A stretch of 62,570 bases of DNA from Arthrobacter sp. H14 (GTDB taxonomy: Bacteria > Actinomycetota > Actinomycetes > Actinomycetales > Micrococcaceae), in the NCBI RefSeq assembly GCF_000520495.1, contig NZ_KI914622.1, forward strand, positions 23,652 to 86,221, given 5' to 3'. Position 1 is the stretch's first letter. Every line of letters begins with the position of its first letter. The notes below the pieces were generated by a model that saw only the letters and a program-made list of their open reading frames with translations, did no database searches and was not told where the DNA came from. Of this stretch, positions 8,591 through 11,026 are shown piece after piece. Position numbers and translations under genes: made by a program.

Positions 8591-8827
8591 ATGGCTCGCA
8601 CACGGCTCAGCACGACCGTAGACACGGAGCTCCTTGAAGGGGCGCGGCGCATAAGTTCAGGTATTACCGACGCCGCTCTCATCGATGCAGCCCTCGAAGC
8701 ATTGCTGGTCCGCCATCGCGCAGCGGAAGTGGACGCGAGCTACGCCGCCTACGACGAGCACCCGCTCGGTGAGCCGGATGAGTGGGGCGACCTGGCCTCG
8801 TTTCGACAAGCCGCCGCAGCATCGTGA
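8591..8827 (+). CDS. Type II antitoxin, ribbon-helix-helix type
   Basis: 78 residues. The N-terminus [20 protein letters not shown] with [17 protein letters not shown] looks like a ribbon-helix-helix DNA-binding domain. The acidic C-terminus ([18 protein letters not shown]) would wrap around the toxin. Its TGA overlaps the GTG start of the following MazF-like gene (GTGA), the classic toxin-antitoxin arrangement. It is one of few plus-strand genes in this half of the window. The 161-bp upstream gap contains no recognised operator. Confidence 0.82.
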
Positions 8828-9153
8828 GCGCGCTGCCGGCTCGGGGAGAGCTGTGGTGGTGTGAGCTGGCCGGGGTCGGCCGGCGCCCCGTCGTCGTTTT
8901 GTCCCGTGACGTGGCGATCCCCAGACTTGGACGGACACTTGTCGCTCCGTGCACGACGACGATACGAGGGCTTCCCATTGAAGTCGTTCTTGAACCTGGA
9001 GACGACCCGGTGCCACGCCGCTCAGCCGTGAACCTCGACTCCGTCGAGAGCGTCTCGGTCTCCGTGCTCGTCATGAGGCTCGGTCGGCTGGCTGATTCCC
9101 GCATGCGCGAGATTTGCGCTGCTCTCGGGATCGCGGTCGACTGTCGAGGTTGA
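8824..9153 (+). CDS. Type II toxin, MazF/PemK family endoribonuclease
   Basis: Sequence-specific mRNA interferase. 109 residues from GTG 8824: [70 protein letters not shown] and the C-terminal [16 protein letters not shown] match the CcdB/MazF fold and length. The start is fixed by the 4-nt overlap with the antitoxin stop; an upstream in-frame ATG at 8782 would lie deep in the antitoxin gene. It should be neutralised by the upstream antitoxin. Confidence 0.88.
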
Positions 9154-9230: not shown

Positions 9231-9398
9231 TTACTGGCGCTCCAGGAGCTCCGCGACGTCGATCGTATTGGGCCGCATGTCGACGGTGGGGCAGAATTCC
9301 CTGCTGCTGACCGGTTCATCGCCCGGGGCGCGGAAGATAGCGTAGCGCCAGTCGTCCCGGATGCAGGTCACCATTGGCGGGGCCGGATTGACCGGAGG
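9231..9398 (-). pseudogene. Displaced 3' coding end of the membrane protein gene
   Basis: If one 35-bp repeat copy is removed, the preceding reading frame continues through this stretch as CIRDDWRYAIFRAPGDEPVS ... EFCPTVDMRP ... AELLERQ and stops at TAA 9231. As it stands this part is out of frame and lacks its own start, so about 50 residues of the ancestral protein are lost. Confidence 0.75.
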
Positions 9399-9433
9399 CA
9401 GGTCACCATTGGCGGGGCCGGATTGACCGGAGG
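9364..9433. repeat. Perfect 35-bp tandem duplication
   Basis: Two identical 35-bp units (9364-9398 and 9399-9433), each beginning CAGGTCACCATTGGCGG and ending GACCGGAGG. 35 is not a multiple of three, so the second copy shifts the reading frame of the minus-strand gene. Confidence 0.97.
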
Positions 9434-9823
9434 CAGGAACTCGCCCGGATTGGTTGGATCGTCAAAACCGGCTTCCCAGACGGTTGCACAGCGCTCCTGC
9501 GGGTCGATGGAGTCAATGGCTCCGGAGTCGTCGAGAACCGGATTGCCCTGGTCGTCCCGGCCCGTCATTTCGCCCTCGTGCAGGACGTAAACCTCTGCCT
9601 GCGGGGCGTCGGGAGTGGAGCCGGCGTAGCAAATGGCCGAGAAGTTTGCCTGTTCCTCGGTCATATTCAGCAGCGCGAATCCGGCTGTAGCAGTGACGGC
9701 CGCCAGGGGCGCGGCCACAAACACACCAAGTTGCTTGCGGCGCTTCCGCCGTCGTTTGTCTTCGCCGATGCGGGTCCGCAGCCGGTTCCGCACGCGGTCC
9801 TTGGCGGAAGAAATCTCGTCCAT
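9368..9823 (-). CDS. Single-pass membrane protein downstream of an ECF sigma factor (frameshifted)
   Basis: The cytoplasmic N-terminus is rich in Arg/Lys (DRVRNRLRTRIGEDKRRRKR), followed by one transmembrane helix at about residues 33-53 and an extracytoplasmic part with conserved-looking cysteines. By position (stop of the sigma gene is 13 bp upstream) it may be an anti-sigma or sensor partner, but no zinc-finger anti-sigma motif is seen. The 35-bp duplication makes the end read LRSIRPRQW and stop early. The undisturbed frame would give about 185 residues and end at 9231. ATG 9823 is chosen because GAGGGGG sits 9 nt upstream; GTG/ATG at 9832/9829 are alternatives. Confidence 0.8.
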   Translation of the reverse strand: MDEISSAKDRVRNRLRTRIGEDKRRRKRRKQLGVFVAAPLAAVTATAGFALLNMTEEQANFSAICYAGSTPDAPQAEVYVLHEGEMTGRDDQGNPVLDDSGAIDSIDPQERCATVWEAGFDDPTNPGEFLPPVNPAPPMVTCLRSIRPRQW

Positions 9824-9836
9824 GTCCATCACCCCC

Positions 9837-10430
9837 TCAGCTGGTCGTCATATCGGTAAAAGTAGATTGAAGTTTCGCCCTCAGGCGGAAGATGCGGCTC
9901 TTGGCCGCGGACCGGCTGATGCCCAAGTCCTTGGCAATCCGGGCATGCGAAGCACCTTCGATGAAGTGGATGACGAAGATGTGGTGGTCCTCGGCGGGCA
10001 TCGTCCGGACTGTTTCAAGTACGCGCTGGACGGCGTCCCTGGACGCCACCGTTTCCTCCACATGGCTGTGCGAAAGGTAGCGCTCGACGTCGTGCTCATG
10101 GATGTCGAGCATTGCCTGATTGCCCATCTTGCGATTGTGGTTGTAGATCAGGAACTTTGCCGTGGTGAACAACCAGGGCCAAGCCGTTCCGTCCGCAATC
10201 GTGACCTTTTTGGCCTTCGACCATAGAGTGAAGAATGCTTCCTGCGCGATGTCTTCGGCCGCCGACATATCTCCGGACATTCGGCGGCAGACCCGGAGCA
10301 GGTTGCCCGCGTACCGTTCGTACAGGACGTCGAACGCGGCGTCGTCACGTTTCGCGCACCGATGGAGCAACTCCTCGTCGGTCCTCGGGTCGGCCCCGGC
10401 ACCATCCGTCCGGCGGCCGTCCTCCGGCAT
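9837..10430 (-). CDS. RNA polymerase ECF-type sigma factor
   Basis: Directs RNA polymerase to a small regulon. Region 2 is DAAFDVLYERYAGNLLRVCR with SAAEDIAQEAFFTLWSKA and WPWLFTTAKFLIYNHNRK. Region 4 is MPAEDHHIFVIHFIEGASHA with IAKDLGISRSAAKSRIFRLR. The 197 residues are normal for the sigma-70 ECF group. The ATG shares one base with the TGA of the upstream secreted-protein gene (TGATG), so translation is coupled; a membrane protein follows directly. This suggests the factor and the secreted beta/gamma-crystallin-like protein belong to one envelope-related response. Confidence 0.93.
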   Translation of the reverse strand: MPEDGRRTDGAGADPRTDEELLHRCAKRDDAAFDVLYERYAGNLLRVCRRMSGDMSAAEDIAQEAFFTLWSKAKKVTIADGTAWPWLFTTAKFLIYNHNRKMGNQAMLDIHEHDVERYLSHSHVEETVASRDAVQRVLETVRTMPAEDHHIFVIHFIEGASHARIAKDLGISRSAAKSRIFRLRAKLQSTFTDMTTS

Positions 10431-11026
10431 CAGCCAGCGATGAACCGGGCCGACGATGCCCGGTCATTGAGGTTTCCGACGTAACTCGAGCTCCGGAAGT
10501 GTCCGTAGAAGGATCCGCTGAGGTCCGAGTCGTCATAGAGCCCGATGCGGCATCCCGATCCTGCTATGAATGACGAGACGGTGTCATTCCAGCCTGGGTA
10601 ACCGCTCAGGTCCGCAATATGTGTTCCGCTGCTGCAACCTCCGCTGCGCGAAATGATCAGGTATCCGCCTTCGTACCCGGCGTCGCGGTAAAAACGGCCG
10701 ACGACCCGCTGGTCTGAAGTGGCACTTCCCGTCTGCAGTTGTGGTGTGGGTTCCGACCCGGAGCCTGCGGCTTTGAGCTGCGGTTCCTGCGTGGCCTCCA
10801 GTGCAGGTTGCTGCATCGCGGTGTTCATTTCCGCTTCCGAGGTGAAGCACTGCATGGAGCCGGAATCGCCATTGAGCCAGCAGTACTCCTGACCTGCACT
10901 TGGCTGGTCTCCCGGAGTCGGCTGGGCCCCGGGCGCCGGCACTGCGCCGGCAGTCAGCACCGCCGAAAGCATCAGGGCGGAGGCGAATGTACTTCCCAGC
11001 TTCCATGTTCTGAAATTACGCACCAT
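10430..11026 (-). CDS. Secreted beta/gamma-crystallin-like (peptidase-inhibitor I36 type) protein
   Basis: 198 residues. A signal peptide (SALMLSAVLTAGAVPAPGAQ) is followed by a Pro/Gln-rich linker with two cysteines (about residues 30-105), then two crystallin-type motifs: FYRDAGYEGGYLIISRSGG ... GYPGWNDTVSSFIAG and IGLYDDSDLSGSFYG ... LNDRASSARF. This fold binds calcium or inhibits metalloproteases in actinobacterial homologues. It is the first gene of a three-gene unit with an ECF sigma factor, an uncommon pairing. GGAGGAATGGTG allows either ATG 11026 or GTG 11023 as start. Confidence 0.82.
   Translation of the reverse strand: MVRNFRTWKLGSTFASALMLSAVLTAGAVPAPGAQPTPGDQPSAGQEYCWLNGDSGSMQCFTSEAEMNTAMQQPALEATQEPQLKAAGSGSEPTPQLQTGSATSDQRVVGRFYRDAGYEGGYLIISRSGGCSSGTHIADLSGYPGWNDTVSSFIAGSGCRIGLYDDSDLSGSFYGHFRSSSYVGNLNDRASSARFIAG

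Follow-up and report, generated by a model that had tools for sequence, protein, structure and literature searches.

Genes and features at the locus

The window, by which we mean the whole stretch of DNA that was analysed, comprises 62,570 bases of an 86,221-base contig in a draft assembly of 4,265,090 bases and 158 contigs. On its minus strand lies a conserved unit of three genes (9231-11026), encoding a secreted protein, an ECF sigma factor, and an unnamed membrane-type partner. The same unit is found in Arthrobacter castelli, Arthrobacter rhizosphaerae, and four more genomes, and the order of the three genes is the same in the window and in these six closer relatives. The product of the first gene weakly resembles I36 inhibitors (E 0.018, below the cut-off). 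The last gene of the unit is the subject of this analysis, as its reading frame is broken by a perfect tandem duplication of 35 bp. The coordinates of all features are collected in Table 1.

Table 1. Genes, reading frames, and repeats at the duplicated locus (window coordinates)
Feature	Position	Strand	Basis or remark
Probable secreted protein (first of the three genes in the conserved unit)	10430-11026	-	Signal peptide by eye
ECF sigma factor, 197 aa	9837-10430	-	Pfam Sigma70_r2 1.1e-14, Sigma70_r4_2 2.1e-11
Putative ECF-sigma partner gene, frame broken by the duplication	9231-9823	-	Start ATG at 9823, TAA end at 9231
Truncated ORF, ending in LRSIRPRQW	9368-9832	-	151 aa counted from 9823
Downstream frame, 47 aa, containing the conserved CIRDDWRYA block	9231-9374	-	Read from the sequence
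35-bp unit, copy closer to the 5' end of the gene	9398-9432	-	Exact self-match at shift 35
35-bp unit, copy closer to the 3' end of the gene	9363-9397	-	Exact self-match at shift 35
Direct repeat of 11 bp, 5' end of the duplication; coding strand CCTGCCTCCGG	9427-9437	-	
Third copy of the 11-bp direct repeat, across the junction	9392-9402		
Direct repeat of 11 bp, 3' end of the duplication; coding strand CCTGCATCCGG	9357-9367	-	

Next to the unit, the plus strand carries a VapB-like antitoxin/PemK-MazF-like toxin pair (8591-9153), located between a gene for an S58 peptidase and the broken gene. Some 37 bp separate the peptidase and partner genes in A. castelli, and the two are neighbours in A. 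rhizosphaerae as well. Since the two genes are adjacent in both relatives, insertion of the toxin-antitoxin pair in the window is the simplest reading.

The duplication and the broken frame

Comparison of the window with itself at a shift of 35 gives an exact match of 40 bases (9363-9402 against 9398-9437), which covers both perfect 35-bp units and a further matching GCAGG at 9433-9437. No other run of at least 20 matching bases occurs in the window at this shift. Tandem Repeats Finder returned eight rows for the window, with periods of 12, 15, 15, 21, 21, 21, 42, and 35, of which all but the last are divisible by three.

The consequences for the gene can be read from its frames. The truncated minus-strand ORF has the C-terminal end ...VTCLRSIRPRQW, whereas the frame that stays open to the stop at 9231 reads ...PPVNPAPPMVTCIRDDWRYAIFRAPG...ELLERQ*. 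Past the duplication, this other frame runs on as ...VTCIRDDWRYAIFRAPG... until that same stop. The original prediction, that two perfect copies break a minus-strand gene, is thus borne out by the self-match and by the frames. It had placed the gene between 9231 and 9829; the end at 9231 stands, but the start had to be moved to the ATG at 9823, which corresponds to the MDEIS start conserved in the relatives (positions 9829 and 9832 are in-frame starts upstream of it). The premature stop (9370-9368) adjoins the ATG of the downstream frame (9374-9372) in the sequence ATGGTGA. Of the protein's four conserved cysteines, the first three are retained in the truncated ORF, and the fourth is lost together with the rest of the CIRDDWRYAV block.

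Homologues and constraint

The nearest homologue, from A. castelli DSM 16402, is a single uninterrupted frame of 183 aa. Its DNA aligns to the window gene with a 35-column gap at the duplication and, apart from that, two 3-base indels within the gene. This agrees with the proposal that the one-copy state is an open frame to 9231. Searches at the genus level covered two of two genomes, A. castelli being the only other one, whereas at the family level 10 of 395 genomes matched (the genome under study included); A. rhizosphaerae was added from a named collection. All 10 homologues outside the own genome are uninterrupted over the match, four of them being distant (26-37% identity, with part of the query covered). 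None of the 10 ends naturally at LRSIRPRQW, which upholds the frame break. A contig search with the intact homologue as query gave four loci, three of them apparently on contigs already matched at the family level, and one with the truncated protein as query found no relative. In the four homologues taken from named records, the four cysteines and CIRDDWRYAV are invariant, the latter being the longest invariant run.

The gene directly upstream carries the Pfam sigma-70 region 2 and region 4 domains in all nine homologues tested, and in the tenth the upstream sigma factor was recognised by its sequence. With the same domains in the window's own sigma gene, the placement of the broken gene behind an ECF sigma factor was correct.

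Compared with A. castelli, the partner gene has a pN/pS of 0.245 before the break (140 codons) and of 0.247 after it, the latter a rough estimate from only 42 codons; the sigma factor gives 0.208 over 164 codons. Equal constraint on either side means that the break, if real, is recent, and the claim of a recent event agrees with this, the DNA after the break being intact as well. The alternative of an older break whose 3' part is in decay was rejected on the same figures.

The partner protein and its putative role

In the partner, which is small, some 32 mostly basic residues are followed by a hydrophobic segment and then by an outer domain containing four cysteines; the segment and the topology were assigned by eye. 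Neither Pfam nor NCBIfam gave a family above the cut-off. An NCBIfam anti-sigma factor model matched six of the seven members weakly (best E 0.0009), the first family member reaching 13 bits where the cut-off is 100. A profile search of solved structures gave two matches (E 0.24 and 0.27), and the predicted structure of the intact homologue, with a mean pLDDT of 44.7, was too poor for a fold search. A limited literature search under the name of the weakly matching family found nothing. It is the constant gene neighbourhood from which we infer a putative role for the partner in controlling the neighbouring sigma factor.

End repeats and probable replication slippage

On the coding strand, the duplicated unit is bounded by CCTGCCTCCGG and CCTGCATCCGG, which lie 35 bp apart in each copy. 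The first 5 bp of these end repeats are identical and 10 of 11 positions agree overall. Among arbitrary abutted 35-bp copies, an end homology of at least 5 bases would arise by chance in 0.57%. Pairs of 11-mers lying 35 apart and matching at 10 or more of 11 positions occur at 22 of 1,310,480 N-free positions (all 80 assembly pieces sampled), and at 10/11 at none of 237,992 in a smaller subset of pieces; the 11-base span of this count was settled on only once the repeat had been seen. The end homology thus fits slippage.

At the site of the duplication, such 11-bp direct repeats are absent in all six of the closer homologues, which were the ones compared (best 8/11), so the site is not a slip-prone element that has been kept. 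Nor are repeats of this kind rare in themselves: of 1,495 90-bp stretches drawn at random from the window, 74 contain one with a spacing somewhere between 20 and 60. A one-off accident suffices to account for the duplication.

We consider a recent, one-off tandem duplication through replication slippage the best explanation, with a probability of about 0.62. In this scenario, the gene originally contained two nearly identical stretches of 11 bp at a distance of 35 bp. The growing strand would have slipped back from the second stretch to the first, so that 35 bp were copied twice. Thirty-five extra bases do not make up a whole number of codons, hence the shift of frame and the stop of translation inside the second copy. 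The shortened product would retain its N-terminus, which is short and basic, along with the hydrophobic (membrane) segment and the greater part of the outer domain, and it would lack most of the longest invariant block and the fourth conserved cysteine. Control of the neighbouring ECF sigma factor by its partner would then likely be lost or mis-set. For SigK/RskA, altered and truncated forms of the anti-sigma factor are described as able to inhibit or to enhance SigK activity (PMC7509140). As RskA variants act in either direction, the sign of the effect in the window gene is not predictable. Reversal by the same slip may be possible in principle, and nothing points to selection as a switch. 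A limited literature search found nothing on slipped-strand duplication and nothing relevant on duplication combined with anti-sigma factors.

Quality of the assembly

Perfect duplications can also be produced by assembly. We scanned 1,329,542 bases of the own assembly (80 pieces including the window, about 31% of the genome) alongside 1,212,001 bases of three relatives (412,001 + 400,000 + 400,000). The sample of the own assembly holds 105 runs of exactly 100 N and four single Ns, whereas the relatives' sequence holds no N at all. Withheld sequence also reads as N, but at 24 of these 109 N-runs, the end of the left flank is repeated exactly at the start of the right flank over 15-265 bp (most of them 18-32), which identifies them as scaffold gaps between overlapping contigs. 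If abutted, these 24 overlaps would each show at most 3 bases of extra homology. Gene counts and pseudogene calls in the sampled pieces L021-L059, L100-L119, and L140-L159 need care.

Perfect two-copy duplications of at least 17 bp number 16 in the own sample, 10 of which, all N-free, are not multiples of three; there are none, in or out of frame, in the 1,212,001 bases of the three relatives. Arrays with over two full extra copies were excluded from this count: A. castelli has one with a 25-bp unit, in about four copies, and 18-bp arrays occur both there and in the genome G184. Of imperfect duplications (at least 85% identity) with a length not divisible by three, the own assembly has 10 and the relatives have 4, 1, and 2. 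Four of the perfect duplications appear to break genes, which were named by eye: a 46-bp one in an aldo/keto reductase (L022:6382), a 239-bp one in a lipoate ligase (L045:14624), a 154-bp one in a response regulator (L109:11940), and a 50-bp one in a VOC-type protein (L111:1706). Another, of 20 bp with 6 bases of end homology (L143:4774-4820), possibly lies between genes.

The 16 duplications can be divided by their end homology. Six have at least three extra matching bases; they measure 18-36 bp, four of them are in frame, and none lies within 600 bp of a gap. The other ten have 0-2 extra bases and span 17-1004 bp, with two in frame and five within 600 bp of a gap (in fact, all five within 570 bp), where 10% of random positions would fall. 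The contrast in gap distance between the two groups (p = 0.09, for a grouping made after seeing the data) is suggestive, not strong. The 35-bp duplication, with its 5 bases, belongs to the first group. Its nearest gap in the scanned sequence is 29.7 kb away, the scan having run outside C2:20001-23651 (3,651 bases, at least 9 kb from the duplication).

Weighing the explanations

In the principal alternative, overlapping contig ends were joined without being merged, so that the overlap was written twice and the gene is intact in the organism. The abundance of N-runs, the exact repeats at their flanks, the frame-shifting perfect duplications, and the four apparently broken genes all speak for such an error. 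Given the unmerged overlaps and perfect duplications that are unseen in the sampled relatives, it is a serious rival, and more serious than expected. The absence of perfect duplications from the relatives also implies that their natural rate is low, so that slippage calls for a rare event. In addition, 35 bp falls within the size range of the N-run overlaps (15-265), and the same assembly contains other perfect, frame-shifting two-copy duplications without end homology, several of them in apparent genes. On the other side, an end homology of 5 bases is improbable for a join of this kind, as the chance figures given above indicate, and the short duplications that have end homology are mostly in frame, as expected of real slippage under selection. 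Half of the low-homology duplications sit next to a gap, far closer than the 35-bp one, but the other five are also more than 600 bp from any gap. Two of these (239 and 596 bp) are more than 5 kb away, and distance from a gap is thus no safeguard against an error. All in all, we regard an assembly error as possible and to be taken seriously, if on the unlikely side.

The original prediction went further and saw in the duplication, which can revert by slippage, a possible means of switching the putative sigma partner on and off. In such a switch, the duplication would be gained and lost often enough for the partner to be on in part of the population and off in the rest. A reversible 35-bp duplication would then toggle the ECF sigma partner in an Arthrobacter-type population, as a form of bet-hedging over the sigma regulon. 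Perfect adjacent copies of 35 bp can indeed be lost by slippage, and phase variation by tandem duplication was reportedly described in pneumococcal capsule genes by Waite in 2001 and 2003. The end repeats are, however, missing from the site in the six homologues, there are two copies and no array, and perfect duplications are unusually common across the own assembly; moreover, the species is represented by one genome. We therefore do not retain the switch, which seems to us very improbable. Slightly more improbable still is that the shortened protein is functional, or that the two parts are made separately, the 47-residue C-terminal piece through re-initiation. Altered and truncated anti-sigma proteins that can enhance sigma activity, as described for SigK/RskA (PMC7509140), would suit a functional short form, and the premature stop adjoining the downstream ATG might allow re-initiation. 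The constraint on the downstream frame is normal, but recency explains this equally well; the C-terminal piece would be devoid of a membrane anchor, and none of the 10 homologues is split.

If the duplication that we attribute to slippage is real, it would represent a natural and very recent loss of an ECF sigma partner, from a family without a Pfam or NCBIfam match above the cut-off. As no library model describes the family, a comparison of strains could then show the partner's role. If it is an assembly error, it teaches that frame-breaking perfect duplications in scaffolded drafts need to be checked against the assembly-wide rate before they are read as switches.

Comparison with known systems

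A study of vertebrates describes false duplications that arise when contig ends are left unmerged or gaps are filled incorrectly (PMC9516828). The duplication in the window is like them in consisting of exact adjacent copies in a gapped assembly, and unlike them in that its end homology and its distance from a gap argue against an error, without excluding it.

The gene pair itself resembles ECF sigma/membrane anti-sigma pairs of the SigK/RskA type, as the gene directly behind an ECF sigma gene encodes a small protein in which a single hydrophobic segment is seen by eye. It differs from them in that the partner family has only about 32 residues before the segment and no domain above the library cut-off.

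As for the duplication within a gene, the capsule genes of Streptococcus pneumoniae offer a parallel. Phase variation through duplications in the type 3 locus, cap8E, and tts is reported in works cited by one paper (PMC8406281), and another speaks of spontaneous, reversible sequence duplication (PMC4243769). Unlike these genes, for which phase variation is reported, the window offers one assembled genome only; like them, it presents a short duplication within a frame that inactivates the gene and that could revert.
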